This document shows positions 9,901-41,909 of a DNA stretch of 64,000 nt, in pieces. The position numbers and the translations under genes are program-made. The stretch spans positions 20,607,386-20,671,385 of the forward strand of contig OX344752.2 in the NCBI GenBank assembly GCA_947034885.2. Reading direction: 5' to 3'. The DNA is from Thuidium tamariscinum (lineage: Eukaryota > Streptophyta > Bryopsida > Hypnales > Thuidiaceae). Within the stretch, counting starts at the first letter, position 1, and each line of letters starts with the position of its first letter. The notes under the pieces are model-generated. The model was not told where the DNA came from. It ran no database searches and saw only the letters and a list, made by a program, of their open reading frames with translations.

Positions 9901-10504
9901 CACCTTCCTAAATACAAGAGTGGAAAACCTTACTAGTTGTAAATCATGATGCTTGTATTTATAGAAATAAGCATTCATAACCCTTTCTAAATGGATACTT
10001 TGTCTTTCTAACATTTATCCAAAAATGTGAATGTCCTAAAAGTTGCGACTCTTTATAATATGTAGAAGAAATAAGTTTGGAATGTATATAACAATCATCA
10101 AAAAATATTTCATACTGATTTCATGATTGAAAAAAAATATGTAAAAAGAAGTACATTATGATTAAAAATTTTGAATTGTTAAGAATTTAAATACAAAATT
10201 GAAAAATTTCCATCCCAATGGTTGAAAATGTTGTGATAAACAATCTATATCTAATGTTTTCTTTTTCTTTTTCAAAAGTTACACACTAAGTTCAAAATTA
10301 AACTATGCAATTCATTTTTTAGTAGAGATTCTATGATTACCAACAATTAAAACTCCTCATAACTTTCACCTCATGAATCAAAAAAAGAAAATCAAGCATT
10401 TCACAAATATATAAATCTGGAAAATCAAATTTACTTTTTGATTTTTAAAAATGAATTGGAGTTTCTTATGTTGCCCAAACTTCTTGTGTTGAGGAAGAAA
10501 TTGT

Positions 10505-11239
10505 GGGTGAATGCAAGAAACACTCGTACTATTTTTTGTCACAATTTAAGTGATGATCTATTTTTTGGCCATAACTTTTGTAGTTTTGCTCTAAATGACT
10601 GAAGATTTCTAAAATAGGTACTCATGACTATCATAAACCTTAAATAATCTTTTCATAATTTCAAAAAATATTTTAATACTAAAATAGTACTAGTGATTAA
10701 ATGTCACAAATGACAATTTGGAAGTTTTTAGTACTAAAGAGTACCTTTTTTTTCAATGATTTTGAGATGAAATTTGGATGAGATGGTCTTTTAGTAGACT
10801 TACATCTCTCCACATGAGGAATTTTGAAAAAAGTTATTTTTATGTGGTGTCGAAGTCTACAAAATGAGCTTCTTTTTGCTTGAATTTTGAAACATGTAAA
10901 TATTATTTTGGTGGTTTTTTTGGTGAATGACCATCTCCATAGAGTTGTTGCCAAATGGCCACTTTTTATTTTTTTAATTTTCTTATTTTTACTATTTTTC
11001 CTGAATTAAAACATGAAGGTATGTTTTTTCTTGAGGTTTGGCACTTTTTAAGTTTTCCTACTTTGAAAAATTTTCTATCAATTTCCTTTGGTGAGAACCT
11101 TCATCTTAGAGTTGTATACATTATTCATATTTATTAAATTTCTTTCAAATTAATTTTCTAATTATAAAGTACTCTAGAAAAAGTAATGAGTATTGTAATA
11201 AAACGCAACAAATAGTACAAGTGTTTCTTGCATTCACCC
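10505..11239. mobile_element. MITE of the GGGTGAATGC family (copy 2)
   Basis: The ends GGGTGAATGCAAGAAACAC and GTGTTTCTTGCATTCACCC are flanked by TTGT on both sides (10,501-10,504; 11,240-11,243). It shares its whole 735-bp body with 19,945-20,677. The duplicated block has the same insertion with its right end deleted, so this insertion preceded the duplication. It landed within an older AT-rich repeat that resembles the element inside the LINE near 63 kb. Confidence 0.85.
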
Positions 11240-12002
11240 TTGTATGTCATACAAAGCCGTTGTAACCATATAGTCCAAACTTATGAGAATTGTTGCTCCT
11301 TAAGGCTATCTTTCAACTACATATTGAACAAAAATTTCAAAGAAAAAAAATTGGAAACTCCAAATGTAAATAGATAACTAAATACATCATGCAACCAAAC
11401 AATGTTATTTGGTCCTTTACAAGTTAAAGAAAAACTTCATAGGGTCTACCCCTAGAACTTCTGGCATATGTCGTGCAAGTGACAATGAGTGCTATGGAGT
11501 ATGAGAGAGGGCTCAAAAACACTTTGGGCATTAGGGATTGTTCTATAGGTGGTTGTGAAATGGACATGATATGGTTCTTTAATTGACCTTTCTAATCATT
11601 GAATGAATCAAAGAAAAAAAGTATTATTAATTGCAAGTGCCAATCAATCTCTTTTCTCTCCGTTTTCTTAAAAGTTGCAAGTGAATAGTTTATGGAAGAC
11701 CTAGGGTCATAAATAGGGACCTATGATACAACTTATTTAAAAATTCATAACTAATTCAATAATGCTTCAAAAATCATGAAACGACTTGTGTTACATTCCT
11801 CATCTATTTCTGTTTCACTGAAAAATGAGCCAAAAATATTCCCATAAAAGGAAATACATGAAAAAGGCGGATCAGCTCTTAAGTGAGCGATTTCTGAGCC
11901 TCTTACCTTAATCCTTGGTACCTTTTATTTCAAACTAAAACTGTGGAGAACAAGCTCTGATTCAGCTGCTAAAAGTTCTTCGCCAAGAGCAGGAGTAATT
12001 TC

Positions 12003-12310
12003 CTAAGGCACCAAGGATTGTGTAGTCCATGTAATGCAGTACGTGAGTTGATTGTCATTCATCAGTCTCGTGATAAGCTCTTCAACAATTGAAGTCCATT
12101 GGGGAAGTGTTCCTTTCAGGAGCTTGCCAAGACTATACACGTCTGAAAATGGCACAAATACAACGGATTCCAGCCGAAGAAGCACTGAAATTCATCCTCC
12201 ACTTTTGAAACGAAGATGTGCTGCGATTCAAGGTCGATGAGTAAGGACAGCCAAGGCCGTTCTACTGTACACACGCTGAGCCACCTCCTGCAATCCAGCT
12301 CAAACTTCAA
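12003..12310 (-). pseudogene. Protein-kinase-like relic (copy A)
   Basis: Two overlapping minus-strand frames read like pieces of a kinase catalytic domain. One has LIDLESQHIFVSK, comparable to the catalytic-loop pattern HRDLKxxNILV. The other, in a different frame, has PFSDVYSLGKLL, comparable to the subdomain IX pattern SDVYSLG. No glycine-rich loop or intact DFG/APE was seen. The duplicated block carries the same remnant near 41,106-41,400. It lies downstream of the DUF247 gene on the same strand. The call rests on two short motifs only. Confidence 0.35.
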
Positions 12311-13000
12311 TGAGCATCAGTTCCCCAAAGGTCTACACTTCAATCTGACCGGTTCTTAAAACTACTTCGAGTGGGCCATATCAATGCCTGAGGAACGAAC
12401 GGGAATCCTCTCACGTACAGCATTATCAGCCTCCTCTACGTCAAGAAAATAGTGTTTGGACAAGACTAGAACTATCAAAGTTTGGAGTACAATTCTCTAC
12501 TGTGAGTTTCCTCCTTTCCATCTGACGATAACTCAGAAAACATGGCGCGGCCACTAGATAGCCGGGACCAAGTTTGCCATTTTCTTTGATAACCATTAGG
12601 CATAACATACGATGCGTAAACACTCCCAGCGATCGGAAATATTCGACAGGTCAAGAGGTCGATGGATTCGAATCAGGGACTTTTCCACATTCCTTGCCAA
12701 TGCAGACCCACTGAAATGCTGTGTCTACTGCTTTCTAGTCTAAGAAGAAATCGCCTCTCCATGAAACATTGCATTAAGTGGCTCCATGTTAAACTCGAGA
12801 TCAGCTGGACTTCGGGTGAGCCATGGGTTCTGATTTGCGTGACTTGCTTGAATGGAAGGTTGTGGCTGACGGTTTGCATTGTTGATTGTGGGGGCAGGTT
12901 GCGGAGCTGGTGAGAGACTAGTTGATTTCTGACAATCCCTGCTAAATGACTCCATACAGCTTCCTGCCTCTCCATCTGTAATGTAAAGTCTCCAATCACC

Positions 13001-13362
13001 CATTAGAGAAAATCTGGACTCTCCAGAGGGTCGCTAAGAAGTGGCAGAAGCGACCCCTCATTACATTTAATTAGCATAAGGCAGAATTTTTTCCTATAAC
13101 TGTGATGTACAAGTGACATGTGCTCAACAGTGTAGCCAAACGTTAGAGCTTTGAAATAGGAGCTCTTCTATATCATACGACGAAAATTCTAAAAAACCGA
13201 CATATTTTGCGTGGCACTGAAGATATGCACAGAAGCTGAACTGCATCTTTTGTCATGAATTGGGCACTTTATACAGAAATCGGGCTTATACAAAAATCTA
13301 TATATAGACCGGCTTGTCAAAGTTAGGCGGCCGCCTCTCGAGAGTCCAAATTTTTCCTAATG
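13001..13362. mobile_element. MITE with CATTAGAG ends, present only in copy A
   Basis: The ends are CATTAGAGAAAATCTGGACT and, inverted, CATTAGGAAAAATTTGGACT, followed on both sides by CTC(C/G)AGAGG. Copy B has an uninterrupted site (aatcaccaaacagtaag near 42,927). At most one base looks duplicated. The terminal CATTAGAG matches the first eight bases of the 10-kb element at 21,021, so it could be a non-autonomous relative. Confidence 0.7.
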
Positions 13363-13649
13363 CATACAGTAAGGGAGAGCTTCCATCGACCACACATGTG
13401 CACTTCAAACCTTTCCCTACAACCATCTACAAATTGGCACCATCTACAATCTTGCACATTACTTATTCTGTGTCAAGCTACAAAACATTTGCAAAAGAAT
13501 AAACGTCAGGAGATGAAGTGAATTTTTCACAATTTCCACAATTTCCACAAACCAAAGCTCGTGAGTGTGGTCAATGGAGCCTCCATTGTACTGTATGATT
13601 GATGGAGCCGCTTCTAGCTCAATGTGTCCCTGGATGCACCACCATCACT

Positions 13650-16492
13650 TCAGCTTTCACTCGGCCATCGCCAACCCCTGCGATCCGAATTCACCACCGT
13701 GAACCACGTCTGCAACGCCGTGAGGAACAAGATCGTCAACGCTCCCAACAAGCTAAGAAACGTCCACGGATTGGAGAAGAAGAGCACACTCGCGTCTCTC
13801 CGCCATCGCTTCACCGGATTGCGACAATGGTTGTGGATGTCCTGGTAACACTGGAGCCACGAGGGAGAAGGCGTCGTATCGGACACGCCCTTCATGATGC
13901 GGTTCCACATTCCGTCGACCCCGGCGTTCCCCACCTTGTCGTCCACCACGCCGTGGTCGATCAGGAGGGCAACGTCTTCGGAGTTGTTGCTCAGGGAAGC
14001 CATGCACTGCAAGAAACATCGCATGTCACCACCTAATGGTGATGGGAAGATTGAGTTACTTTCGGAAAGGTTCGGACGATTGTGCATGCAGACCTTTGAA
14101 TCTAGACCTGTCTTTGTTCTCGAGGGAAAGAAAACACTACTGTGTATCTCGGTTTCCGTCCAGGGTTTTCATTGACTTCGCAGTGTTTTGTACGATTGTG
14201 CAGAGCTTGAATCCAAAGCTGTGCTAATTATCACAGGAAATACCACTTTCCTACATTTCATTTTTCGTTCAAGGTTTCAGGGTTTCAGGGTTTTCGAGTT
14301 AATATAGGGTTTAAAGTTTTCATTGATTTGACAATGTTTTGAACGACTGTGCAGAACCTGAATCTTGGCTAATCCTTGTAATCGTAGGAAAAGTCACTTT
14401 TTCGGCATCTCAATTTCGGTTCAGGAGGAAATCCAACATTTTGCATCTCATTTCAGTTTTAGGCTCAATTCCTTCATTTCAGGTGAAGTTTGGTACGATT
14501 GTGGAGACTTGAATCTGTACTTGCCCTTGAAGTCAAAGTAAAAAACATCCGCGAAACGGGAAACTGCGAATTGTCATACCTTTAGTGACTTGCTCGTGAA
14601 CCGCCAGGTTGTGGAACACAGTTTCGGTGAAGTCGTAGATATTCACTTTTGGTAAGCTCAGTGTGGCACTGGTGACGTACCCGAACCCTGTGAGCTTGAT
14701 CTGGTTCAGTACCGGCGCTTTGTCTGTGACTACGATGCCGATGGCTTTCAAACGAGACGCGGAAGGTATGGAGTCCAGGGGCAGAGATGGAGTGGGTTCA
14801 GGATCAGGAACAGGGAGCGAGTGACCACACACCACGACGTACACGCAATCAAGTATATGTTTGCAGTTCTGTAGAGAGTGCTCGGGTTTGTCTAAGGGAT
14901 ACTTCTCGTCCAAGTGGTCAAGAAATCTATCCGCCTCGCTTTCGTTTTTCCGTCTGCACAATACCGAAGATTAACAAACCTTCAACCTCGTATCGTGGAG
15001 GCCACCGCAGAAGTTCCTGATGCTACATGTCTCCCAAACTATCCTCACAAAACTGAACCCTGAACCCGAAATTCTTGAACAATCAAATTGCATGACTAGT
15101 GGGCTGGCGATGACCACTCTATTGCACCTCAGAGCGCAAGCACTTGAAGGATTTGGGTACAATGTGCGATAACCATACCGTTTTAGCAGCCAACAAGGCG
15201 TTGGTACTGGTTCATCAAGGTGTCTCAACGGGTAGAGATTGAACACAGCGACCTGCAGAACAGTTTCCAGCTCGACCTCCGCCGGCTTTCGAATCTCTTC
15301 AGCAGTATCAGTCGAGACAGCACGAATGGCTACCAACTCCGCAACCACGTTCTTGAGCAAGTACATTGGAAGCTGATTCTCCAGCAGCAGCAAGTCTGAC
15401 CTGAGGCAAGTTCCATAAATTGGCAATTCCCACTTAAATACATGGCAACTCTTAATGTACAGATTTTACGAACCTCAAATCCATCCACCTGTCCTTGTAG
15501 TCAAAACCACCTGTGCATCTCGTAATACCAAGCCTGGTGGTCAAGGCAACTGCGTCCGGTCTCATTTGCTAGTTATAATCAGAGGATCATTTCAACTATG
15601 GGCTTCGTTTTTTGCAGTACACTGTGCTCTTCCTCCATTACAGAGGACCATGACTGGTCCTCTTTCGGGTTGTATCGCTGAAAAATACCCTTCCCTTAGT
15701 CCTCGTCGTCCTAAATCCTTGGAATATCCAGAAAATACTGATCTAGATACTGTTAAAGCGAAAAATCCCACAGCAGGCAACGCCTGATATTTCGCTAGAT
15801 GCACGACCAAATGCACTGCACGTGGCAAAGCACACTGCAAGATGAATTGCACGGAGCAAGTATGCTTTGCAGTCTTCCCCGGTTGTGGGAATTTGATTCA
15901 TTAGAATGACTACATTCCATGTTCTCTATCAAGTATTAGGGTTCTGCAGGGGTTCAGGATTTACTCCACTCAAAGAAGAACTGCAAATTGGATGTGAATT
16001 CACTCACCTGATGAGAGTCTTTGCAGTGTCGAGCAGCCTCGGCTTCAGATGCTTAAACTCCTCCAGGAAGAACTTGTTGGAATTCAAAAACTGGAAGAAG
16101 ACAACAACAAAGAGAGCATCGAGAGCAAGCAGAAACGGCACCACTTCCTCTGCAATCACGCTGCTACTTGTATTCTTTTGGTAGTGTCCACGAGCAGTCC
16201 CTATATCTCCCACGACGGTGCGTGCAAAGGCTTCCCAGGAGCCACCACTGGAAAGGAGCTTCTCGTGGAGGGAGCGAGCGATGTCGACCTTGAGCAGCTG
16301 CGTTCCCGTCGTTTGCAGTGAGCGGCGGTGGAGGCCCAGTTGGAGCTCCTTCCGTTCGTGGTACGCTGGGGACGTGGATCGCACGAGGTCGGGGACGCAG
16401 AAGATGGTCACCGAGGGTTGTGGATCTGCAGGGAAGATTTGGAGTTTGACGGGCTCGTCACGGAGCTGTTGAAGCCATTCCTCATTGGTCAT
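13650..16492 (-). CDS. DUF247 family membrane protein, copy A (4 exons)
   Basis: Exons are 16492-16009/8, 15400-15179, 14953-14580 and 14032-13650, joined by GT-AG introns in compatible phases. They give about 487 residues ending in TGA with no internal stop. Family marks in order: IFCVPDLVR near the N terminus, DLLLLENQLPMYLL across the exon 1/2 junction (the typical DLLLLENQIPFF block), SASRLKAIGI and TETVFHNLAVHEQ in exon 3, and EDVALLIDHGV in exon 4. At the C terminus FFSNPWTFLSLLG opens a single hydrophobic membrane segment (about residues 449-470). DUF247 (PF03140) is a plant family of largely unknown biochemistry; some grass members sit at the S and Z self-incompatibility loci. The first ATG fits the usual short N terminus before the CVP motif. 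The role here is unknown; the family call is firm. Confidence 0.88.
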
Positions 16493-16664
16493 GCCTGATC
16501 TCTAGAAACTCGTCAGAGAAATGTTTGTTGGGTTTTTTGTAGACGAAGCTGAAGATGATGATGAATCACTCTTGCAAACCTTAAATTGACGATGAGAACC
16601 AATCAGGAAACCCTTACGAGCTGGAGAGAAAGGAAATGTGAAATTGCAAGCGATTTTGGCTCTA

Positions 16665-19944: not shown

Positions 19945-20677
19945 GGGTGAATGCAAGAAACACTTGTACTATTTTCCGTCACAAGCTAAGTGCTGATCTG
20001 TTTTTTGGCCATAACTTTTGCATTTTTGCTCGAAATGACTCAAGATTTCTAGAGAAGGTACTCATGTCTATCATACACCTTACATAATTTTTTCATAATT
20101 TTCAAAAATAGTTTAATACTAAAATAGTACTAGTGATTAAATGTCACAAATGAGAATTTGGAGGTTTTTAGTACTAAGGAGTACCTTTTTTTAATGATTA
20201 TGAGATGAAATTTGGATGAGATGGTCTTCTAGTAGATTCACATCTCTCCACGTGAGGGATTTTGAAAAAAGTTATTTTTGTGTGGTGTAGAAGTCTACAA
20301 AGTGAGCTTCTTTTTGCTTGAATTTTGAAACATATAAAATATTATTTTGGTGTTTTTTTTGGTGAATGACCATCTCCATAGAATTGTTGCTAATGGCCAC
20401 TTTTTATTTTTTGAATTTACTTATTTTTACTATTTTTCCCAAATTAGAACATGAAAGTATGTATTTTCTTGAGGTTTGGCACTTTTTAAATTCTCCTACT
20501 TAGAGAATTTTTCTATCAATTTCCTTCAGTGAAAACCTTCATCTTAGAGGTCTATACATTGTTCATATTTTTCAAATTTATTTCAAATTAATTTTCTAAT
20601 TTTAAAGTACTCCAGAAAAAGTCATGAGTATTGTAGTAAAACGCAACAAATAGTACAGGTGTTTCTTGCATTCACCC
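19945..20677. mobile_element. MITE of the GGGTGAATGC family (copy 3)
   Basis: The ends GGGTGAATGCAAGAAACAC and GTGTTTCTTGCATTCACCC are flanked by CTTA on both sides (19,941-19,944; 20,678-20,681). The 733-bp body is closely similar to 10,505-11,239 and has no coding capacity. The segment 20,682-21,020 to its right shows no feature. Confidence 0.88.
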
Positions 20678-21020: not shown

Positions 21021-21052
21021 CATTAGAGCAAAATTGGGGTTTCCAGATGCCT
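21021..21052 (+). repeat. Left terminal inverted repeat of the 10-kb element
   Basis: It begins CATTAGAGCAAAATTGGGGT and ends ATGCCT. It pairs with 30,990-31,021 with three mismatches. Confidence 0.88.
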
Positions 21053-21553
21053 AAGTTGGCTCCTCTATTTTCTGGCTTGGAAATTGCTGAAAATGCCACC
21101 TTGCACGTTGCCAACGTGGAGTATAAGGCGATGACATCAGATTAGGCAGCTGTTGCCACCAATGGGAGCAAAGTGTTGGAAACAATATTTTAATGGTGTA
21201 CCATTGTCCCCTGTCCTGTGTGTAGAGTTAGAAAACAAATTTCTCTCGGGCTGTACCAAACGCAGGACTAGTCCTGCATCCGGACCAGTAGTGGAGCCGC
21301 CGGATGTCAACAATGATGCGATGTGGTTTCCAGTTTGGAGGGAATTTCGAATTTGGCATACATGTGGCCCATCTCCAATTTCAGAATTGGTTGAAACCTC
21401 ACTAGGTTGTTCAAAATCACAATTCCATGCAGTGTTGTTCCATGCATTGTGTGAATGCCAGTGCTGTCAATTGCTGCCCACTTTGTGTGATCGTTGGCAA
21501 CTCGGTCTGTGATTGCTAGTTGAGAGATTGTGCGTTCGCATAGGTGATCAGGA

Positions 21554-23059
21554 ATGGAAAATCGCAGACCGCGTTCGCAGGTGGCAGCAGTGACGCTCCA
21601 CAACACGCACAATGACCAGGGAGACTGGATTCCAACGAGATACGAGAGGTGGTCCTGGGTGAGGTTGAACCCTGGTAGAAATGGAACTTGGGCTAGAGAG
21701 GCTCGTCGCCATGGAGGTGACAGCATGAGGGGATCTTACAAGGCTCAAATTGTGGACTTCCGGTTCAAATTTGATGGGCGCAGGCCCGTTTCCAACAAAC
21801 CGGAAGTGGAGGCCGTGTTGGTTAGACATGCTTACCACAGGCATCAAATGCTCCTAGATCCAGAGATTCGCTACGACCGGGTTCCATGCAACTGTAAGAG
21901 TAGATGTTGCTTTGTTTCCACCTTCGATGAGTTCCTGTCTGTTTCCTACAAGTTTGCTTTCCATCGAAGTTCACGTGGCTGTGGCTTCTCACTGGTTTGC
22001 TAATTTCGTTTGTGGTATTGTTTGTTGGAAACAGTTCTGTATCGGTCCTATTTTGAAGACTAGGTGGACCCACTTTCTATACTTGGAGTCATCGTCGTTG
22101 TGCATAGCAAAATTGGTGAAGCCAGTCGGAATGGGAGGTCCCACAACGACCTTCTTGAGAATGGAATATTTTTTTCTAATATGGTCTATGTGCCACCTAC
22201 GCCAGGAGTTCTTTACGGATCAGTTGAGCCACTGCTGTTGCCAACTTTGAGTGATCCCCAGTGGCCTCTCCCGGACATGCATACCAGCGAAGCGTTTCGA
22301 TTCAAGCTTCGGCCAGATTTTCAAGCTGTCACCAAGGCCACCACTGGCAGCCGCATGGGCCACCTCCAGTGGTTTATACCCTTGCATGTGTTTGTGGATC
22401 TTTTTGCGTGTGAGGAAGAGAGTATCAGACGCACTGCCGTCCTCTACGTTGTCAACAGTCCATCTGACGAGTTGTTCACGAGCCTCATGGATGCAGGTTG
22501 GCATCAGAAAGTCGTCTTTGGTAAGGACATCGTCAGGTGCACAATCTCAATGGACACTGTATCCTTCAGGTAAGGACACTTCTGTTGCCAACAGTTTGTT
22601 GCGTGTGCCATTGTCGACTGCTTCCTTGATTTTCAGTGCTTTTGGATTGTTGCGCACGTAGAGGATTGCCTTGCTCTAACGTGTCGTATGCGCTGCAGAT
22701 ACCATGTTGGGCGAGAGACGTTGTACACTAATTTCAAGTATGGCCGAGAGCGTTTGGAGCCAGATGGAGTTACTTGGAAATAGATAGACGAAGTGCAAGA
22801 GGAAGACATGGTGATTTTGCCATGTGTGTTTGAAGGTGTGACGATGGCAAGGTTCCAAGTGGGTCGAACATGGCCGTTGTCACACATTCGCAGAGAGGTT
22901 GTTATCACCTTGTTCGGTATTGTTCCAGAAGACTTCCGCTTCAGAGTCCATCAACCAGGGTTTCCCGACGTGTATGTGAACCGCAGACAGGAGGGTGGCA
23001 ATACGGTAGCACAAGTCCTTCCTCCGTGGACATTCGAAATAGTAGCCGTTACCAGCTAA
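21554..23059 (+). CDS. Unknown gene of the 10-kb element (3 exons, two in-frame TAG)
   Basis: Exons 21,554-21,893, 22,035-22,569 and 22,699-23,059 join through GT-AG introns in compatible phases (1,236 nt, 411 codons plus stop). They begin MENRRPRSQVAAVTL and end IVAVTS-TAA. Two TAG codons lie in frame, after SYFED and after GVTWK; each position could have been glutamine. The middle exon has LSILGVIVVVHSK and a hydrophobic WFIPLHVFVDLFA stretch. The last exon (MVILPCVFEGVTMARFQVG..., WPLSHIRREVV, FRFRVH) is regularly hydrophobic and may be a beta-rich fold, possibly ubiquitin-like; that is a guess from pattern only. The first intron's acceptor sits directly on a motif copy (GTTGGAAAC-AG). I do not recognise the family. 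An earlier exon before 21,554 is possible. Confidence 0.55.
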
Positions 23060-23800
23060 GAGAACTATCAGTTTATAGCTTAGAGAAATTTTAGCACTTA
23101 CATTCCTACAAGTGCCTCTTTGACAGGCACGTTGGGAACAGGGCAGTGCTTAAAAGGATATACAGTTAGAAACGAACTTATATGTAACCAACAACCGTAA
23201 AAGGAAATACTCCAAGGCGAAATTTTGATTAAAAAAAATTCTTTTTTGACACACAATGTATTGCCTGCTTGGGTCTTTGGGACATACTCTTCTTCTCAAA
23301 GTTTGTTGCCACTCGGTTCATGTGACCCTAAATACATGATAGAGTTGTCCTTAACATCTACAGGGCCATTTCCTTGCTAAAGACCCCGTGTTTCCAATGC
23401 TGCCCTGTTGTGTACACTATCCTGTAAGTCCGACGACGTTGCCAACAAGGAAGTAATCACAGAAACTCCCTAACTGTAATGCACAATGATTTGTCAATGC
23501 CTAAGGGAAGACTTGCAAGTGAAGGATGGTGTCCAACTTGTGGCCAGTGCCAACATTGGTACTTCAGAACTCCGAGTTAAACAATTAAGGCATGAAAAAT
23601 GCAAAAATGCTCAACATGTGAAAATGGATATTTTTATTATTGAAGAGGGTTGTCCAAAAATGTGATGGAAACATATGTGGTCAGAACAACTCTATGACTG
23701 TCCTCAAAAGAGAGCAGTTCCCAACACACTAAATCTACAAAAACGCCCCTGTTTCCAACACTGTCTACACTTACACTATCCTCTAAGTTCGAAGGCGTTT

Positions 23801-26083
23801 CTATACAATGGCAAGTCCTAGTTTGTCAACAAGCGCATCTAGTACTTCTACATGATCAGAAACCTCGGAGGATTCTAAAGAGGGTGACCCAGGCTTGCCA
23901 ACAAGTTCAGCTTGTTGGCAACTCTCCAGCTCCACTGGTTCCGATGGCGCGCCCCCTGCTTCAAGTAACTTGGAATCTTCACGCCCTGCCACCATAGGTT
24001 CCTTCCCGCGCCTCGCCGCGGCCAACGTCGTTCCTCTGTCAACAGACACCGAATCTTCCGCCATAGGATTGTTGTTCTTCTCCTCTTCACGCTTCTTCGG
24101 CACGTCCGGGCTTCTTTCGGGCTTCTTCTCCCCCCTTCTGGCAGCTACTGCTTCATTGTCTGTTTCAAACAGAGCAAATCACGCATAAGCAACTTTGTAA
24201 CAACACAACACAATTCCAACAAGAAGAACTACAATCACGAAGCTGGAAACTGGCAATCTTCATCTCATTGTTCACATAGATGCCAACAAACATGTGCTTA
24301 GACTAGAATTGCTATGCATGCAGTACTTACTGTGATTAGCTAAAAATTGCACAGCTGCAGCAACCGCTTCTGTGTAAGGAGATCCTCGAGGCCGGTTCAT
24401 GAAACAAGGCATTGGCCAAAGGTAATCTAATGGAGCGATGTCAGATAGCACTTTATGCTGGGCCTTACCAACTATGGGTGATGGACCTAGTGACGTCTTT
24501 GCCATCTTCGGAGGAATTTTATGGTCAGGCATCAGAGACGCTTGCCTCTTCCGCACTGTGAAGGCAGAATCATGTGCCGCTGGCACCTCGCTACACTCAC
24601 AGAGCTCGGCCGGTTTCTTTGTTTCCAACACGTCAAAGCCCCATACTTCCAGCCACTGAGAGTCAGCTACTTTCTTGCACCGTGGACACACACGACTCCC
24701 CGAAAGAATTTCTGACCACAAACACCAAGGGTGAAACAAGCAACCACACGAAAAGGGCACAGCGGTGTTGGAAACAAAGAGGAGCGAGCATTGTGCGCAG
24801 GGTGCATCCACTTGAAGAATTGGCGAAACACCCGTTGCCAACGCCTGTGCCTGAGCAGGCTTCTTCGGCTTGATGGAGTATTGGGATGCTCTCTCAGCGT
24901 TGCATTGCTTCTGGAACTCGTTGAGTGCTTGCTCGCTCAACATCTGTGTGCACTCCTCGTTGGCAAGAGTCTTTGCCTTCGCTGCAACTAAGTCTTGACA
25001 TTCCTCCAACTTGTCGTTGTTGGCAGTGATGTCCTTGGAAATCTGCCGCTGCTCCTTGTCCACCGTTGCTTTCTCTTCCATACTCCCGGCCACTCCGAGT
25101 TCCTTATTCTTCTTGCGCAAGAAATCCTTCACAGAGTTGAGGCGTTCATCTTCTGCTTCCAAGTCGAAGACTTGGCCTTCCAATTCCTTCAAGGTACCCC
25201 ACAACCGCTGAATTCTCTGAGCTTGCTTTGTCACTTGACGAGTCTTCTTGTTCACCATCTCCAACAACTCGTCCAGCTTGTTCCCTCCACTGTTGCCAAC
25301 GCCCCCTGCTTGAGGCCCAGCATCTCGCCCGCCACTCTTGCCAACGCCATGTTCCTGAATGTCGGCCTTCTGTCGCTTGCCACTGCTGGCAACAGAAGCG
25401 GGCTGAACTCCACCTTCTCTTTGGAAGTAAGCGCTGATTTCTTTAAGTATGGCAAACAATTGCTCCCTCAATGCTAGAGGTCCCAACTTCAAAGGATTGA
25501 GGCCCGCATGAGCTCGGCGTTCTTCAGTCAATTGCGCCGCAGCCGCTGCCCAATTCACCTTGTTCTTCTTCACACCATCTTTGTAGAAGAACACACACGC
25601 GCGTAGAAAAGTCTGGCTGAAGGCTTTGTTATCGGGCGCATCGCCATAGACTCTAATATATAACCTGAGGTACAGATCCCTCGTCATTGTGTCTCTACAC
25701 CTATCCAACAAGTACCTCGTCCTATTCGCACCTTCCCCAGGCATCCAAATGTGCTCGTACGTGTGCGTTCGAACCATGACTTCGGTCACCTCTTTGGGCA
25801 TGATTCCCTCTTTGCAGAGCCCATACACCCTATGGAAAAAATCCGCGTCATAAACTGCCTTGAATCTCCCTAACAAACACGGTGCCAACACAGGTAGCCT
25901 CTTCTGCAACACGTCTGGAAGTCCCTCTAAATCAAACGGGGCTGACCAGGATCCGAATAATGGATCAGAAGGGAGCAGAACTTCCTCGGGCGTGTGAGGA
26001 GCATTGTCTCTAAGAATCTCAGCGAGGGCCGCTTTGCCTTTGATAAGGCTTTTCGAACGCCCTTTTCTGCTGGAAGAGCTCAT
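23801..26083 (-). CDS. Coiled-coil protein with RING-like zinc finger, in the 10-kb element
   Basis: Exon 26,083-24,331 and exon 24,159-23,801 join across a GT-AG intron in phase (2,112 nt, 703 residues) with no internal stop. The start MSSSSRKGRSKS is preferred. An in-frame ATG at 26,197 adds 38 residues of poor quality. Order: a basic N terminus, a conserved-looking globular part (about 40-210), glycine-rich linkers, a long charged coiled coil (about 265-410), then a zinc-finger-like Cys/His block at about 429-470 (CAQC, SCGCLFHPWC, CPRC). The block is spaced like a RING-type finger but with an unusual C-x-C-x2-H middle. The acidic, Ser/Glu-rich C terminus lies mostly in exon 2. It could be an E3 ligase or a DNA-binding or accessory protein of the transposon; function is not shown. 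Four exact GTTKCCAAC copies lie inside exon 1 in different frames. Confidence 0.7.
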
Positions 26084-26933
26084 GTTTCTAACAACGTACG
26101 ACTCTAGAAACCAACGTGAAGTAACAAGCAGGAGAGAAAAAGTGCGATGGAAACGACGACAGAAGCGGAGAGCAAGTAAGCAGGAGGTGAGTTTCACTGA
26201 GGAAGAAGATGGAGTTTGGGTTTAGGGCTTCACGACGCGTTTGTGATGGGCCCGCCGCCACTGTTGCCAACAAGCCAATGAAATGCCATTGGCGTGCATA
26301 ATGGTCTGACACGTGGCCGCCATTCAGGAAAACAAGTCCATCATATCACACGCTTCTGGGTACTGAGTACTTGTTTCCATCAAGGCTCATGGCTTCTTCA
26401 GCATCATGGAAATGTACTCTTTTTTTGTTTTCATTTCTGAAATTTTAATGTGTTTTTTTCTTTTGTTTATCCCGATAAATTTACCTTTTTAATTTGTTTG
26501 AGTCTGTTTTCATTATTAGTTACTGTAATTTCGAATACACCATGGTTTAATATTACTCTAATTATAGAATCAAGAAATTGATTAGAAATTGATTTTACAA
26601 AAAATGTTCAACGTATTGGCTAAGTCTTTGTAAATAAAACATGTGTACATTTTAGAATACTGTAGAGACTCTTTTCAGTCATCTTGGAAATTTACTTCAA
26701 AGATTTGTTACAAACTCATAGTTTGGCAAACCCACTGTTGCCAATTGTTTCTGACATGTCAAGAAGGCAAAGTTGCCAACGCCTGTCATAGGCTCTAATA
26801 CCTTATATGCTCAATCTCAACATGTATCACCAAAGCCCTCCTAGACTAAACTGTTGGTAAATGGCCTCGTTACATGAATGGGTCCCACTTTGTTGCCAAC
26901 AGCCTAAACTGAGCAGTTCATGACATGCTGCCA

Positions 26934-29900
26934 CTACAAGATGTTTGCCTCATCACTGCCACTGTTTACCACACCCTGGATTTCAACTCCTTGCACCCAA
27001 GCTCGGCCTACTCGTGATCTCCCTTCCCTCCAGATTCTAGCTGCATCCATCGCATTTGACGTGTTGTAGGCCATCCTCTTTTTCTCTGCCGATGCCGTGA
27101 TGATCGCATCATCTTCCATTGATCTGGCGTTGGCAACGTCCTTTTGTCGTTCCTACTTGGCAAACCTGTGTTGTATGTTTCTGTACCAATGTGCATATTG
27201 TTGAACAATGGAGCTTGTTCTCTCTTTAGTGCCTCCATGCTGAGTGTGATGCTGATTAGCAGCCTTAGCTGCATGATGCGATTTTTCCATGCCCTGGTTG
27301 TTCCAAACAGCAAGGCTCCCGTACGTTTCCACGTACCAAGGACCATGGCGCACCAGGTTATGCTAGCAAGCCACAGCATTGAAGTAAATAAAAGAGCATC
27401 CAAAAAAACATGCTTCATGTTGCTACCCCACCCCAAAACCCGTTTCCAACAGCCTAAACTTCCCACATGACAAGAAGCAAAATAGCACCATGTTGGCAAC
27501 AGACGCAACTTACCATATAATGAGTGACGTGGTCTTCTCCAAAGCATTTTACGTAAAGTCTCCCCCATCTCTCAATTTTACCTTTGAAAGTCTCCCTTTG
27601 CTCTTGATCCAAGGAAAGGCCAACCAAATATGGGAACACTGTTTCCAACGCCTTCCACATTTCTACCCTGTCTAGATATTGCCTCTCTTGATCAAGAGTG
27701 TTACTTTCTGAGCGCAAGACATCCTTCCATACTCGATCCTGCCCTGACCAAGTCGATGGTTGGAACATCCTACCTGCAGTCACACCACTGAGGGAGGGTT
27801 TGATGGGAACACTGTTGGAGGCGCCACTGAGTGTTGGGTCCTTCATGATGCGCACGTTGCCATTGTGAAGACCAGCTGCTGACAAAGTCTTCTCCATATT
27901 CTCAATGGCATGTTGTTGACGCTCCTCATTCTTCATGTTCCAAATGAACATGAAATGGAGGTGAAGAATCTTCTCCATCATTCTGGTTAATGCATGCAAG
28001 GTACAAATATGTACCCTCTGAAGTGGAATGGGTAGAATAGGCTTCCACCGTGCTTCTTGGTCAATGTCTAGTGGTTTACAGAGGACATTACCTGCAAATA
28101 AACCTCCCGTCCACGTATGTTTTCTTCTCCTAGCCTCTGTAGTAGCAGATGCCGCTGTTCCCAACACTGGTTTTGTCTGCTGTTGGTTACAGTATATGCA
28201 TGAGTGTGTCGCATTCGCTCCATATTTCAGCCTTGTAGAGACACTTTATGGTCTTCATATCTGCTGACAAATGCCACTCTACTTTGAAGTTTCCAACACC
28301 CTCTACTATTAGCAACTAACCTTCATCCTGTGCTTTGATGAGTGCAGGGAACTGAGTTTGTTGGAACACCCAATGGAGAACTTCATAGGACTCCTTGGCA
28401 ACCTCAAAGCAAGCTATAGGCCAGATTTCAGTTTCAGATTGGACTGAAAAATACCTATCATCGGTTTTTTGTATGCTTGTGTCTAACACACGATTCATGA
28501 GCATCAAACTGACCCTTTCAAATTTCCTCCCATGCACAATCTCTGCTTCGTCCATCTTCAATACAAAAAGGAGGGGCTTGTTTCCAACTTCTGCACATGC
28601 AAGTTCAGTTTGCAACGTCTCAGCAGGCCCCCTTGATGTAACCAACGAGATAAGTCAGCATCATGTACAAGTACTGTTTCAGCATGAATGCATTTTTTTG
28701 GAAAGAAGATTATTCACCTTCAGTGGTAAATTTGTAGAGCTTCACCATTGTCCTCTGTACAACTTCGATGTCAACAAACAAAGAATTCTTTGTTGTCAGG
28801 ACAACTCTAGAAATGTCTGGTTTCTTCTTTCTTCCTTTTCCATTGGTGACTGAAGCTGGTGCCACCAACTCCAACGTACTATCAATGTGGTAATAGTCGC
28901 CAACAAGATCCTTCAACCTCGAATTTAGTTCTATTCGCAACAAACTGACCTGCTCAACAAAATCCATGTTGTCAGAACACCCTGTAACCCTAAATCCTAT
29001 GCTTATATGTCGTGTTCAGATTTTCGTTATTGAAGTTATGCACGATGCAAAGAACCCTGAACCCTAGAACCGCATTGTGTGACAACAAGATGTAGGGTTG
29101 TTGCCAACTAAGGCCCATGTGTCCAACTCGCTACAATTATCTTTTTGCGTGTTCTAGTCGACTATACGTTGCCAACAACCCTACAATTCGCTATACTTTG
29201 AATTGAATGAACTCGTTTCCAACAAGGCATAGACAAAATTCATGGAATGGGGACAGTAACTAGTACCTTGTATGGGTTTGGCAAGAATGTTGGCTTCAAG
29301 CGCTTGTCAACGAGCTGCACTCGCCCTTTGATCGTCTTGTAGATCTCACCATATCCTTTGTGTGACACTCCAGTCATATCACAGGCTGCTAGAATTGCCT
29401 CTGTTCCCAACTCCGTCCCAATTTTGTCGAGGTAGTAGTTTGTCATGCTAGTTGCAGCATCACTATTTTGCGAACTCGAAACCAACGCTAGTGTCTCTCC
29501 TTTTGACAATAATCGTCCTATCGCTTGCCCAGTCCCATCTAGCGTATCTTTATCGCCATACAAACGTTTCCTTTTGCTAGACGTACTGTTTCCAACGTGT
29601 ATAGATTGAACTACCAGCAGCTGCAACAAACTTCGGATTTTTGCTATACGAGCCCTTGCAGTGCCACCACGCTTTGCTAATTCTCTGAGACCCTTCGATG
29701 CTCTCAGTTGTGTCCCTACTGGAGTACTCACCATTCTTTCTATTTTCCTTTGGAACTTCAATACGGCCTTTTTAGCTTCCATGAGTTCCTGCTCCAATCG
29801 GCTCAACTCCTGATGCGTACCTTGTCGTCCTTGTTCTTTCGCCATGGTTAGGTTGTTGTTGTAACTATCCTCATTCCTGGACAACTCTTCTTCAAGTGTT

Positions 29901-30463
29901 ACACATCGAGACCTCAATAAGTCAGATTCGCTCTTCAATGTTGCAATCTCTTCTCTACTTCCTACAAGAAGTTCCGCTGAACGCTGAGCCCAACCACTGT
30001 TGGCAACGTCTAGTTCCTGCTTCAGCAACGCGATGGAATTCTGCAAGCCCACAGTTTTCCGAAGAGCATCAGCTTGTGTCTCCTCTAATTGTTGTTCCAA
30101 TCCCTTCACTGAGTCACAGGTGCTAACAAGGTGTCTACAGTATCCTAGGAGTCCAGATTCACCGTGACACAAGAATTCCAAGTAGCTCTTCACTGTTTGA
30201 AACTGTGGTGGCTTCCCCGTGACAGGATCTGTTGGGTACAAATTGCCATCCAACCATAAATCAATGTTGGTGGCTCCAGAATCTCTCAAGGCTGGAAACT
30301 CTGCTTTTGACGGTTGTTGATCAATTCGAACACCTTTTTTCACAATAGGGGCGAATTTACTATCCAATACTACAACTGCTGTATACAAATTGCCCTTTCC
30401 AATGTTGGTAATCTCTTGAAGTGCCATCGTCCCAAACTCTCTCAAATCATGTGCTTCAGCCAC
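26934..30463 (-). pseudogene. Candidate transposase gene of the 10-kb element, interrupted
   Basis: Pieces run right to left: about 30,463-29,267, 28,949-28,718, about 28,645-28,321, about 28,240-27,514, then 27,422-26,934. Several have clear GT donors (NPYK/GTACTA, ACTGAAG/GTGAAT, CATTATATG/GTAAGT). The first exon has a globular region (about 1-130), a coiled coil (about 135-260) and a basic SKRKR. A later piece has RVHICTLHALTRMMEKIL. The last has HNLVRHGPWYVETYG followed by LAVWNNQGMEKSHH and a HHTQHGG segment. From memory, the order 'H-LV-H-P...YG....QG-EK-N/H' recurs in multicopy uncharacterised proteins of many animals. The conserved E could be a catalytic acid of an RNase H-like transposase, but this is inference. 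Two in-frame TAG codons lie in the last part. Some exon joins could not be fixed. Confidence 0.55.
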
Positions 30464-30989
30464 AGCAAAACCAGTTGAAGGATGTCAATGAGCATGTTGG
30501 CAACGTCCATGAGGCCAACTCATTTGGCGGGAAGCAATTCCATCGCATTGTACAATGTGCACCTTGTGAGCATCTCCACGTTGACCTGCTATGAATCTTT
30601 TCACATTCCTTTGTGCTCGTCAACTTCTGTGTACAGTGGGGGTACAATAATTTTAGGAAGTGGATTGTAAATTCCAACCCCTAAAACCCTGTCTACACTT
30701 ACATCAATAGCCATATGGTACTTGTAACTTGCAATAAAATAGTTGCCAACATACAATATTCAATTGCAAACGTTCATTGCAGTTAGTAGTTGAGGTTCCA
30801 ACAAGGACCTGCCGGTACACCCAACGTACGCACGGCTGTTGCCACCTAGACCAAACTTCGCCTCCCCGTTGCCAACTCGGCCCATGCCGCCTTGTTTCCA
30901 TTGGACTACAGACTTGATGCCAACGTCTGAAAGTGACTATTTTATGCTTTTCCAAAAATCAAACAATTCATTTCCAAGGCAAAAGTACC

Positions 30990-31021
30990 AGGCATGTAGA
31001 GACCCCAATTTTGCTCTAATG
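30990..31021 (-). repeat. Right terminal inverted repeat of the 10-kb element
   Basis: Read on the minus strand it begins CATTAGAGCAAAATTGGGGT, as on the left. The next bases differ at three positions and then agree on ATGCCT. Confidence 0.88.
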
Positions 31022-35760: not shown

Positions 35761-38282
35761 CCATAGATTCACCCAATTGTGTCAGTTGACTTTCCTTAAT
35801 GTGTTCGCCACATGTGTAATTATAATTAGCTAACACACTTGAAGGATACATAGGAGAATCTGGTTGGCTAAGTGCTGATTTTTGCAAGGTTCAATTTTGG
35901 GGGCATCTACCAGACAGTTTCACAGGTCTAGGGAGCCAACACTTTGAAAATTTGTAAAAATTACATATTGTATCGTAAAAATCTCTTTTTTTGTTTGAAT
36001 ATTCATGATTTTCACTCGCTAATACTAAAAAAATATCATATTTAGAAAACACTGCCTCCAACTATGTTGAATTCTTTATTTGCACGGTTTTGGGTGTTTC
36101 CACTGTATCTGTGTTATTGCAGGCTCTATCACCTTTCAACGCGTTGGAATTTCATTTTGAATGATTTTCCAATTTCCCGGCATGATGTGCGTTTATGAAG
36201 ACAGAGTAACCCTCTAAATGCCCTGCTTCACTACTGCAGTGATTCGTTGACAAATTGCTGAGACTGTTCAAGTGGCTAATGGACGTCGTTTCGGGGATGG
36301 AAGAGATCTATTTGAGCTTGAGTGTTGGAGTTCGAATTGCATATTGGTAGGGACGACATAACCTTCTAGAGCGAGAAGGCACGAGACATTTGATCAAACA
36401 TCATTCTTTGTCAAGTTTATTCTTTCATTGAGATTTTTGTAGATTGATATTGTTTGGTTGATCTAGTTTACCCAAACCCCTCTAAGCCTTGAATGGACCC
36501 AATCCCATCAAAACAAGGACTTTGTATTTTATAGATTTGGTGTAGCTGTCATTGCTGTTTTTATTTCTTATGACACTTGCATTACTTATATGAATGTGTA
36601 TGAAGCAACTAAGTTTAAATGGAAAAGAGCATGGACAAAATGTAAAGACATTTGGCATCCTTAAAAATATATGGATGTAGTAGTTTAGTGCTTCATAGTA
36701 TTTTAAACCAAAGTACCATCTTGTCACTTTCCTTTAATAGAGAATAATCAATGAGCATGTCCATGCTCCAATCTTTTGACACTTGTACCCTGAATTGCAT
36801 GCACGCTTCTCCTAACTTATGTCTATGCTTCGAAAGTGTTAGTGCCCTTACAAAATTTTATCCATAACATCTCTTCAATTTGTGCTTCTTTAGAATTATT
36901 TCCACATTTTCATGACTATCCACTCCCCCAACCAACTTTTGTTTTAATTAGCTCACATCAATGTTGGAAGCTAGATGGTGGTGAAGTAAATCCATGTTGA
37001 TTTTCATTTACCTTATCAAAAAGTTAAATATATGATGACTACATCAGATGAGCGGAACCTCTATTGAATATGAGATTGGACAAACAAGCAAGTGGGTGGT
37101 TTGTCCAATATGACAACACTTGTAGAAGAGTCTTTACGTTAAAGTACCTAAAATTGAAGAATTATTATTGAAACTAAATGACCTTTGTACTATACATCTA
37201 ACCTTGATAGAATTTGTTCATGCCCTCCATTGTTGTGAATGTTAGTTCTTGAAAGATCATATGACCCCCTCTCTTGTACTTAATCAATTTAGAGTAGAGT
37301 CATACTCATCATACTACCACCCATCAAGGTTGGACATCATAGATTTCTTACATAGATAAATACCTGCAAGTGCAAGTGCTTTGCAAAGAAGCAACATTTC
37401 ACCAATCCCAATCATCTAGAGTTCTTACACTTTAAAAAAACAAGGGTATAAATGACTTGCCTACAATGAGTGTAAAAGTCATCTCTTGTCCACAATTATT
37501 GCATAACAATTGTTTTGTAGTCATTGGGAAGTTCCAAACATTGTGGACACTTCTTTTTTGGTATTCTTATTCAAGGATCATTTTTGGTTTTGATCTCATT
37601 ATGGGAAATCCAACCAACATTTTTGAATTTGTTGGAGGTTTTGCAAATGTTGTAAAACTCTAAAAAGGTGATTGCAAGAAAAGATGGTACTATTTTTTCA
37701 CACATTCAAAGTGACAAAAATGTTTTTTGCTAGAACTTTTGAAGCATGGAATTGATGTATTTGAAAGTTTGATTGAATATGGTAACTTGATTTTAATCAT
37801 ATACCTTATTTTTTAGAACTTAAAAAATCATTGTATATTTGAAATTGAATTTTGCTAATTTGTCTCAATGTAAGGTGTAGGATTTTTTAGTATTGGTGTG
37901 TAGTCAAAATTAATGATCTAGAGCTAAAAAACTGAACTAACATTTAACTAAAATTTCTTTAGTCTATTTCCATAGTAGGGGGCTATATATGTGCCTATCA
38001 AGGGAGATTTAGATAACATTAATTTGCAACTTCCATGTTTGTGCAAATAATGTCTCTTATATGAGTACTTCAATCTAAACATTAATGGCATCATCTTCAT
38101 TTTTTGGTGAAATCTATTGACCATCAAGTCCTTACAACATCCAAATTTAAGTTTTTATATCCATGATTTTTTGTTCTATTATTGATTTATACATCAATGT
38201 ATCTATTTTCTATGACACATTCGCTTTCTTTTAAATATTACTATTTTAGTATTTGTGAGTAGTCATAGTACTTGCAACAATA

Positions 38283-38682
38283 AGGTAGAACCACCTATAA
38301 CCAATCGGCCCCCCATAGCCAACCTAATGATGGACGTATTTCCAACCAAGGCTAGAATGAGTTTTTTTCTCATTTTTAAAGTTGGGACTAAAAGTTCATG
38401 GCACATGTTCCAAAGTAGTGTGCAAAAAAGTAGAAAAGAGTGAGTACAAATGTAATTTTTTGCGTGATTGAAATTAGAAGACTCCATAGATTGGCATTTG
38501 GTCAAGCACACTTTATGCCTTCCAAAATTCATAGTGATTTCAATTCATGTGATAAAATTACCAAAGTTTTTGCAATCTCCATCATTTTTATCTTTATACA
38601 TTTGAAAATATTTGTCTTACTTTGCACTACACTAGATCATGCCTAAAATACCTTAAATGATCGGTTACGGGTGGTTCTACCT
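38283..38682. mobile_element. TA-flanked MITE, about 400 bp (copy B)
   Basis: The ends AGGTAGAACCACCTATAACC and GGGTGGTTCTACCT are flanked by TA (38,281-38,282; 38,683-38,684). Copy A of the duplication shows the empty site 'caacaaTActattagc' near 9018, which proves the TA duplication and a date after the block duplication. Related to 9495-9900. Confidence 0.88.
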
Positions 38683-39620
38683 TACTATACATTAGCTATT
38701 GATTTTTAGATCAAAGATAGATATTGGTTTGTTTCATAATACTCATAGTATTCCTAGTACAAAGCATAAAAACTACACTTTTGAAAAAAGACTATAGAAA
38801 AGGGTTGACCTTTCTTGCATCTATCCTCAAATTATTCCTAACAATATAGCTTGAGTTTATATGAAATTATGGATTTAATAGCCATTTATCAAATAGTGTT
38901 TGGTTATGAATTTTTTTGTGTTGCCACTAATTATCTAGGTGACAATAATTTACCCCCTTCACTAATACAACAAATTAATGAAGTTTAAAAATCTTAAAAG
39001 AAGACTAAACTTAATGCCTATTCCACAAGACTATAGTGATTTTTAACCCAAAATTGCTTCAAAATACCCCTATTCAATAGCCAGGACAAGCATTCATAAC
39101 CCTTTCAAAATGGATACTTTGTCTTTCTAACATTTACCCAAAAATGTCAATGTCATAAAAGTTGCGACTCTTTATAATATGTAGAAGAAATAAGTTTGGA
39201 AGGCATATGAAAATCATCAAAAAATATTTCATATTCATGATTGAAAAAAAGAATATGTAAAAAGAAATACATTATGATTTAAAATTTTGAATTGTTAAGA
39301 ATTTAATTACAAAATTGAAAAATTTCCATCCCAATGGTTGAAAATGTTGTGATAAACAATCTATATCTAATGTTTTCTTTTTCTTTTTCAAAAGTTACAC
39401 ACTGAGTTCAAAGTTAAACTATACAATTCATTTTTTAGTAGAGATTCTATGATTACCAACAATTAAAACTCCTCATAACCTTCACCTCATGAATCAAAAA
39501 AAGAAAATCAAGCATTCTACAAATATATAAATCTGGAAAATCAAATTCACTTTTTGATTTTTAAAAATGAATTGGAGTTTCTTATGTTGCCCAAACTTCT
39601 TGTGTTGAGGAAGAAATTGT

Positions 39621-40327
39621 GGGTGAATGCAAGAAACACTTGTACTATTTTCTGTCACAACTTAAGTGATGATCTGTTTTTTGGCCATAACTTTTGTAGT
39701 TTTGCTCTAAATGACTGAAGATTTCTAGAATAGGCACTCATGACTATCATACACTTTACATAGTTTTTTCATAATTTCAAAAAATATTTTAATACTAAAA
39801 TAGTACTACTGATTAAATGTCACAAATGACAATTTGGAAGCTTTTAGTACTAAAGAGTTCCTTTTTTTTCAATGATTTTGAGATGAAATTCGGATGAGAT
39901 GGTCTTCTAGTAGACTTACATCTCTCCACGTGAGGGATTTTGAAAAAAGTTATTTTTATGTGGTGTAGAAGTCTACAAAGTGAGCTTCTTTTTGCTTGAA
40001 TTTTGAAATATGTAAATATTATTTTGGTGGTTTTTTTGGTGAATGACCATCTCCATAGAGTTGTTGCAAATGGCCACTTTTTATTTTTTGTATTTACTTA
40101 TTTTTACTATTTTTCCTGAATTAAAACATGAAAGTATGTATTTTCTTGAGGTTTGGCGCTTTTTAAGTTTTCCTACTTTGAAAATTTTTCTATCAATTTC
40201 CTTTGGTGAGAACCTTCATCTTAGAGTTGTATACATTATTCATATTTATTAAATTTTTTTCAAATTAATTTTCTAATTATAAAGTACTCTAGAAAAAGTC
40301 ATGAGTATTGTAATAAAACGCAACAAA
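39621..40327. mobile_element. GGGTGAATGC-family MITE, right end deleted
   Basis: The left end GGGTGAATGCAAGAAACAC is intact after TTGT. The body matches 10,505-11,239. About 35 bases spanning the right terminus and duplication are missing compared with copy A. Confidence 0.85.
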
Positions 40328-41105
40328 TCATACAAAGCCGTTGTAACCATGTAGTCCAAAGTTATAAGAATTGTTGCTCCTTAAGGCTATCCTTCAACTA
40401 CATATTGAACGAAAATTTCAAAGAAAAAAAAATTGGAAACTCCAAATGTAAATAGATAACTAAATACATCATGCAACCAAACAATGTTATTTGGTCCTTT
40501 ACAAGTTAAAGAAAAACTTCATAGGGTCTACCCCTAGAACTTTTGGCATATGTCGTGCAAGTGACAATGAGTATGGGAGAGGGTGCAAGTGACAATGAAT
40601 ATGGGAGAGGGCTCAAAAACACTGGGCATTAGGGACTGTTCTATAGGTGGTTGTGAAATGGACATGATATGGTTCTTTAATTGACCTAGACTCTAATCAT
40701 TGAATGAATCAAAGAAAAAAAGTATTATTAATTGCAAGTGCCAATCAAGCTCTTTTCTCTCTCCATTTTCTTAAAAGTTGCAAGTGAATAGTTTATGGAA
40801 GACCTAGGGTCATAAATAGGGACCTATGACACAACTTACTTAAAAATTCATAACTAATTCAATAATGCTTCAAAAAACATGAAACGACTTGTGTTAGATT
40901 CCTCATCTATTTCTATTTCACTGAAAAATGAGCCAAACATATTTCCATCAAAGGAAATACATGAAAAAGGCGGATCAGCTCTTCAGTGAGCGATTTCTGA
41001 GCCTCTTACCTTAATCCTTGGTACCTTTTATTTCAAACTAAAACTGTGGAGAACAAGCTCTGACTCAGGTGCTAAAAGTTCTTCGCCAAGAGCAGGAATA
41101 ATTTC

Positions 41106-41400
41106 CTAAGGCACCAAGGATTGTGTAGTACATGTAATGCAGCACGTGAACTGATTGTCATTTATCCGTCTCGTGATAAAGTCTTCAACAATTGAAGTCC
41201 ATTGGGGAAGTGCTCCTTTCAGGAGCTTGCCAAGACTACACACGTCTGAAAATGACACAAATACAACGGATTCCAGCCGAAGAAGCGCTGAAATTCATCC
41301 TCCACATTTGAAACGAAGATGTGCTGCGATTCAAGGTCCATGAGCAAGGACAGACTGTCCACGCACTGAGCCACCTCCTGGAATCCAGCTCAAACTTCAA
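41106..41400 (-). pseudogene. Protein-kinase-like relic (copy B)
   Basis: Counterpart of 12,003-12,310 inside the duplicated block, with the same order of the catalytic-loop-like and SDVYSLG-like pieces but further small changes. The call depends entirely on the copy A reading. Confidence 0.3.
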
Positions 41401-41909
41401 TGAGCATCAGTTTCCCAAAGGTCTACACTTAAATCTGACCGGTTTTTAAAACTACTTCGAGTGGGCCATATCAATGCCTGCGGAAGGAACGGGAATCCTC
41501 TCACAGCATTATCAGCCTCCCCTACGTCAAAAAAATAGTGTTTGGACAAGACTAGAACTATCAAAGTTTCGAGGACAACTTTCTACTGTAAATTTTCTCC
41601 TTTTGATGTGACGATAACTCCTCAGAAAACATGGCGCGGCCACCTAAGATAGCCGGGACCAAGTTTGCCATTTTCTTTGATAACCATTAGGCATAACCTA
41701 CGGTGCGTAAACACTCCAAGCGATCAGAAATATTTGACAGGTCAAGAGGTAGATAAACTCGAATCAGGGACTTTTTCGCCATCCTTGCCAATGCACACCC
41801 ACTGAAATGCTGTATCTACTGCTTTACAGCCTAAAATTAAATTGCCTCTCCCCATAAAACAATGTATTAAGGGGCTTCATGATGGACCCAAGATCAACTC
41901 GAGCAGCAT

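Follow-up and report, generated by a model that had tools for sequence, protein, structure and literature searches.

Why would a transposable element repeat one short word along its entire length, inside its genes as well as between them? The question is raised by a 64,000-nucleotide stretch of the moss Thuidium tamariscinum (assembly GCA_947034885.2, contig OX344752.2, positions 20,607,386 to 20,671,385 of the forward strand), which was analyzed as a whole and is called the window below. The window contains a 10,001-bp element that resembles DNA transposons of the CACTA/EnSpm-related CMCT clade, its family left unassigned by Pfam. An exact word count on both strands finds 31 copies of GTTKCCAAC in the window, all 31 of them within positions 21107-30876 of the element, with none in the remaining 54 kb; their mean spacing is 325 bp. 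These figures bear out a preliminary description of the DNA, which had reported 31 copies in this interval, about 325 bp apart on average, spread over the whole element and confined to it. The spread agrees as well, since the positions show no departure from uniformity (Kolmogorov-Smirnov test, p = 0.94). Gaps between the 31 copies are slightly more even than random (coefficient of variation 0.73, p = 0.034), evenness that is not significant when sites with up to one mismatch are included (66 sites, p = 0.09), and a search for nucleosome or helical phasing reveals no strong period.

Comparison with randomized sequence, which the preliminary description had suggested, leaves the enrichment standing. 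Markov models of orders 1 to 5, built from the element's own sequence and run 100 times per order, give mean counts of 0.34, 0.59, 1.26, 4.29 and 12.4 and highest counts of 3, 3, 4, 11 and 24, against 31 observed; orders 4 and 5 already contain much of the motif. Post-hoc choice of the pattern was allowed for by taking, low-complexity words aside, whichever 9-mer with one two-fold position is most frequent. Such a word occurs no more than 12 times in any simulated sequence (orders 2-4, 30 sequences per order), and 7 to 15 times in eight 10-kb stretches elsewhere in the window that overlap in part. In the element it scores 38, which corresponds to 19 sites of GTTGSCAAC, each palindromic site being counted on both strands. 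Sites with exactly one mismatch add 35, bringing the element to the 66 just mentioned, compared with 4.3 sites with up to one mismatch per 10 kb outside it. After sites with up to two mismatches are masked, no second enriched motif appears in the element, the commonest 9-mers occurring 3-4 times.

The form of the motif suggests what kind of molecule reads it. A weight matrix describes an odd palindrome, about H-GTTKSMAAC-D, with a T/A-flanked consensus core GTTG-S-CAAC in which position 4 may carry T instead of G, or the mirror position A instead of C. The center is C or G, and there is almost no preference past one flanking base; in sites oriented as GTTKCCAAC, a preceding G and a following C each occur in 0/31. 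Deviation is usually confined to one half of the palindrome, a pattern that points to a homodimeric DNA-binding protein as its source and gives a strong fit to dimer binding. Copies had been described as lying on both strands, and they do, 22 on the plus and nine on the minus strand (binomial p = 0.03); with an odd palindrome, these are largely one kind of site.

Copies inside genes show on which level the constraint acts. Eight open frames of the element (5646 bp), taken as exons from the sequence rather than from transcripts, hold 11 of the 31 exact copies, distributed over the three phases as 6, 1 and 4. When synonymous codons are permuted within each frame, so that protein and codon usage are preserved, the mean falls to 0.80 copies; none of 5000 runs reaches 11, and the maximum is 5. 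Allowing one mismatch, seven of the eight frames (B4 left out) contain 28 sites, compared with a shuffled mean of 7.8 (1000 runs, maximum 17). Elsewhere in the window, five further open frames totaling 7953 bp contain no exact copy and five sites with one mismatch. Exons are nevertheless 2.4-fold poorer in the motif than the rest of the element (1.95 versus 4.59 per kb, p = 0.028), as would be expected if the demands of the protein sequence work against it; the contrast is no longer significant once one mismatch is allowed (66 sites, p = 0.083). The excess over synonymous shuffles implies that selection acts on the DNA word even where this costs protein freedom, and the sequence evidence indicates a motif under selection at the DNA level. 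The earlier argument from exon copies in differing frames to a constraint on DNA is thereby strengthened, with palindromy and unrelated flanks now beside it.

The favored explanation, which has about an even chance of being right, is that an element of CACTA/EnSpm-like (CMCT) build encodes a homodimeric DNA-binding protein, that the motif is its predicted site, and that the protein has a chromatin role along the whole body of the element. Sites would be gained singly under DNA-level selection, and the protein would coat the entire element, beyond its ends alone, keeping its chromatin open or regulated as VANC or TnpA proteins do. The candidate binders are the product of gene A, with its coiled coil, and then that of gene C. 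The argument that leads from DNA-level selection to a dimeric binder is strong. For a binder encoded by the element it is moderate, because the surrounding 54 kb lack the motif, and for anti-silencing it is weak, because the element's observed/expected CpG ratio of 0.62 is ordinary for the window, whose 4-kb bins range from 0.21 to 0.77.

Several observations weigh against this explanation. The imbalance between plus and minus copies is unexplained by a symmetric dimer site, and the CpG ratio gives no sign of escape from methylation. Pfam finds no recognizable DNA-binding domain in genes A, B and C, and structure models are poor, with a mean predicted local distance difference test score (pLDDT) of 43 for the first exon of gene B and 45 for gene A. 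The copy also looks broken: the second D and C(2)C boxes of gene B lie in different frames only 41 bp apart, a distance too short for an ordinary intron, and this frame change, together with the stop in gene C, suggests that it is probably non-autonomous now. The preliminary description had proposed binding sites for a protein of the element, serving transposition or protection from silencing. Its binding-site part gains from a DNA constraint typical of such sites, whereas an element-encoded binder and its role stay predictions, given the lack of a Pfam DNA-binding domain in the three genes.

A more specific reading, put forward tentatively and with clearly lower confidence, is that the motif forms a code of self-identity. 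The element's own dimeric protein would read a 9-11-bp palindrome gained site by site, in genes too at the price of altered amino acids, and would thereby bind the element throughout and mark it as self. If true, a transposon unrelated to VANDALs would have evolved an anti-silencing or chromatin system of its own, one that lacks tandem repeats. Few systems are understood in detail in which a transposon marks itself from end to end for a protein of its own; in the present case the sites are countable and restricted to one element, and they leave a measurable footprint in coding sequence. Binding of the motif by a protein of the element would mean that an anti-silencing or regulatory code had arisen independently of VANC, and would also supply a new sequence-specific reader for chromatin targeting.

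Explanations that assign the word no function fare poorly. Post-hoc choice of the pattern is all that speaks for chance or a composition effect, which the Markov, other-stretch and synonymous-shuffle controls refute and whose probability is negligible. Neutral spread by copying, through micro-duplication or gene conversion, can point to several related copies: those at 26892 and 27442 share 10 nt of 3' flank and may be a product of copying, three other pairs share 6 to 7 flanking bases, and an 18-nt inverted pair lies at 29091 and 29168. Over all copies, however, 12-bp flanks on each side have a mean identity of 26.7%, compared with 25.1% at random places, and the best flank match per site averages 11.4 of 24 versus 10.7, a small excess that probably reflects the one preferred base on each side. 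Flanks this unrelated imply that the sites were not multiplied within longer repeats or by tandem duplication. Duplication was dismissed as the principal source of the copies, and the sites appear to have arisen mostly one at a time. Neutral copying would moreover not respect gene frames, and it is highly improbable. A role of the word in RNA, such as in the splicing or stability of transcripts, would suit the orientation bias toward the plus strand, the main genes A and B being on the minus strand. A palindrome, on the other hand, is expected of a DNA dimer and not of an RNA word, and copies also lie outside open frames near the ends (21107, 30742, 30868) and beside genes on both strands, which makes a function in RNA very unlikely.

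Functional readings at the DNA level differ in which protein binds. A host protein might read the sites, either as a transcription or open-chromatin signal exploited by the element or as a means by which the host recognizes it. With their CAACA arms, such short palindromes may resemble sites of plant transcription factors. Against a host reader, the 54 kb of flanking DNA, with its other genes and elements, has no exact copy, enhancer use would favor promoters over exons, and a site of host recognition should be lost rather than gained; this reading is unlikely. The motif might instead serve cut-and-paste transposition, bound for synapsis by the transposase or a TnpA-like helper, with internal copies tolerated or strengthening the binding. 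Ac/Ds elements carry subterminal AAACGG sites bound by transposase for synapsis, and they resemble the present case in having many short binding words in one element, although the words are subterminal there and element-wide here. As far as the cited account goes, CACTA elements have repeated motifs near both ends that are read by TnpA-type helper proteins, and the core TTGGCAG of one soybean CACTA element has TTGGCA in common with GTTGGCAAC, a resemblance given no weight (PMC2613891). In the moss element, four of the 31 copies lie within 300 bp of the ends (1.9 expected), five within 500 bp (3.1) and seven within 1000 bp (6.2), so that the count nearest the ends leans toward synapsis but no significant end clustering is found at any of these distances. 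Mid-exon sites are not needed for synapsis, yet the exon excess is strong, and the proposal is judged unlikely.

The favored reading, a site for the element's own chromatin protein, shares features with two known systems and coincides with neither. According to the sections of the accounts drawn on here, VANC21 of the Mutator-like Arabidopsis element VANDAL21 reads the 9-bp YAGTATTAY in non-coding DNA and demethylates whole elements (PMC5735166), and VANC targets tend to form tandem repeats (PMC5735166, PMC10398659). Likeness lies in a 9-bp motif repeated within one multi-gene element and in a reader acting on the whole element, which is only proposed here (PMC5735166, PMC10398659). The parallel that had been drawn with VANC thus holds for a short motif across an element but is looser than claimed, since VANC21 sites are non-coding and tandem-prone, whereas 11 of 31 copies here are in presumed exons, their flanks are unrelated and they are palindromic. 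VANDALs also have a Mutator transposase, and Pfam recognizes none in this element; no open frame tested matches the Mutator-like transposase family.

The En/Spm parallel, by comparison, gains weight. The CMCT clade, as characterized in the cited description, has D, D, C(2)C, H(4)H and E boxes and mostly CA..TG termini, and includes CACTA/EnSpm (PMC12730594). Shared with CACTA/EnSpm are the CA..TG ends, this box order, an accessory gene beside the transposase and a short repeated motif. The element differs in ending in CATTA rather than CACTA, in having sites over its full length where CACTA/EnSpm sites are subterminal, and in the missing Pfam transposase match and target-site duplication. Lanisha is said to have been reported by authors who work on moss genomes. 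This proposed cut-and-paste superfamily belongs to the same CMCT clade by its box pattern and is set beside the element by description only (PMC12730594). Reach of VANC or TnpA sites through exons is not described in the cited accounts, as far as these were available (PMC5735166, PMC10398659, PMC2613891), and a literature search for such an exon-crossing motif pattern found no match among the papers listed, which is no proof that none exists. The exact word itself turned up in a search that found 169 papers, and the 20 of these that were listed seem, from their titles, to concern other subjects.

Boundaries and genes of the element (Table 1) give the basis for its placement. The termini are CATTAGAG..CTCTAATG, that is CATTA..TAATG, with the CA..TG ends typical of CMCT elements. 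The 2-5 bp target-site duplication looked for in this clade was not found at these ends, which are bordered by unlike sequences, TTTGG and GACAT; the closest candidate otherwise is the imperfect 8-bp pair CAATTTGG/CATTTTGG, with two bases left over. Gene B (minus strand, 27.2-30.4 kb) carries D, D, C(2)C, H(4)H and E boxes in this order; the boxes are split over frames, and their catalytic roles were assigned by eye. Pfam searches with the whole gene and with parts of it (E up to 10) match no transposase family, and no related chain was found in the PDB. An identity as KDZ/Zisupton was dropped, there being no profile match and the boxes fitting the CMCT pattern. Scans of viral and prokaryote sequence collections found no true relative; the only locus matched among prokaryote contigs, from Thalassospira (18/44 residues), was taken as chance.

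Gene C (plus strand, 21.5-23.1 kb) resembles no Pfam family. The RING-like finger of gene A is weakly similar to RNF8 (E 0.034) and to Ring1B/RING2 (E 0.14-0.47). For the element to encode a ubiquitin ligase would be out of the ordinary, and such an enzyme could have host chromatin proteins as targets. Gene A also matches LcrV (Pfam E 4e-6 to 5e-6; PDB E 3e-6); the match lies in the long helical stretch and was taken as a chance coiled-coil resemblance.

Table 1. Features of the element and exact copies of the motif GTTKCCAAC (positions in the window)
Feature	Positions	Strand	Basis
Whole element, 10,001 bp, 5'-CA..TG-3' ends	21021..31021		inverted repeat ends; motif confined to element
Left terminal inverted repeat, 32 nt, 91% complementary to right	21021..21052	+	inverted-repeat pair
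Right terminal inverted repeat, 32 nt	30990..31021	-	inverted-repeat pair
Gene C open frame 1, protein unlike any Pfam family (E up to 5)	21554..22000	+	open frame
Gene C open frame 2, no Pfam family	22064..22570	+	open frame
Gene C probable last piece, in-frame stop	22700..23059	+	open frame
Gene A, 603 codons from ATG: helical N-terminus, long coiled coil, RING-like zinc finger	24275..26083	-	RING/coiled-coil matches; low-confidence fold
Gene A RING-like finger, C-x2-C .. C-x-C-x2-H-x2-C .. C-x2-C	24677..24799	-	box pattern
Gene A possible second exon	23804..24178	-	open frame
Gene B first exon, long helices and helix-turn-helix-like end	29243..30427	-	open frame; model mean pLDDT 43
Gene B second open frame	28713..28967	-	open frame
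Gene B third open frame, with first catalytic D box LFVLKMDEAEI (28538-28570)	28319..28654	-	open frame, box
Gene B second D box HLSADMKTI, frame differs from next box	28247..28273	-	box
Gene B open frame with C(2)C box HSCIYC (28189-28206) and H(4)H box HICTLHAL (within 27973-28011)	27514..28245	-	open frame, boxes
Gene B last box with E, GMEKSHHAA (27267-27293) .. HTQHGG	27231..27293	-	box
Motif	21107..21115	+	exact match
Motif	21175..21183	-	exact match
Motif	21493..21501	-	exact match
Motif, in gene C frame	21788..21796	+	exact match
Motif	22024..22032	-	exact match
Motif, in gene C frame	22237..22245	+	exact match
Motif	22584..22592	+	exact match
Motif	23438..23446	+	exact match
Motif	23751..23759	+	exact match
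Motif, in gene A possible second exon	23914..23922	-	exact match
Motif, in gene A	24621..24629	+	exact match
Motif, in gene A	24767..24775	-	exact match
Motif, in gene A	24834..24842	+	exact match
Motif, in gene A	25292..25300	+	exact match
Motif	26263..26271	+	exact match
Motif	26772..26780	+	exact match
Motif, 10 nt of 3' flank common with 27442	26892..26900	+	exact match
Motif	27129..27137	-	exact match
Motif	27442..27450	+	exact match
Motif	27492..27500	-	exact match
Motif, in gene B	27641..27649	+	exact match
Motif	28289..28297	+	exact match
Motif, in gene B	28580..28588	+	exact match
Motif	29100..29108	+	exact match
Motif	29168..29176	+	exact match
Motif	29215..29223	+	exact match
Motif, in gene B	29588..29596	+	exact match
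Motif, in gene B	29999..30007	-	exact match
Motif	30496..30504	-	exact match
Motif	30742..30750	+	exact match
Motif	30868..30876	+	exact match

The surroundings of the element are rich in repeats. A DUF247-type gene segment occurs twice, at 7360-16625 and 37372-46343, flanking the element, and the two are mostly 85-95% identical, with 81-82% in the weakest blocks; its DUF247 genes place the host among the land plants. No empty insertion site was found within the window, the duplicated segments excluding the element's insertion point. A repeat of about 0.7 kb is present in three copies that are 91-92% identical (19945-20677, 10505-11239 and 39621-40328); the first has 30-nt inverted ends (97%) and looks like a miniature inverted-repeat transposable element. 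At 3366-4766 lies a foldback-like inverted repeat whose 580-bp arms, made of shorter repeated units, are 98.8% identical. A Pogo/Tigger-like transposon gene with Psq and Tc5 helix-turn-helix domains and a DDE_1 domain occupies 47178-49941, and 57236-62448 holds a probable non-long-terminal-repeat retrotransposon with an endonuclease-like domain.

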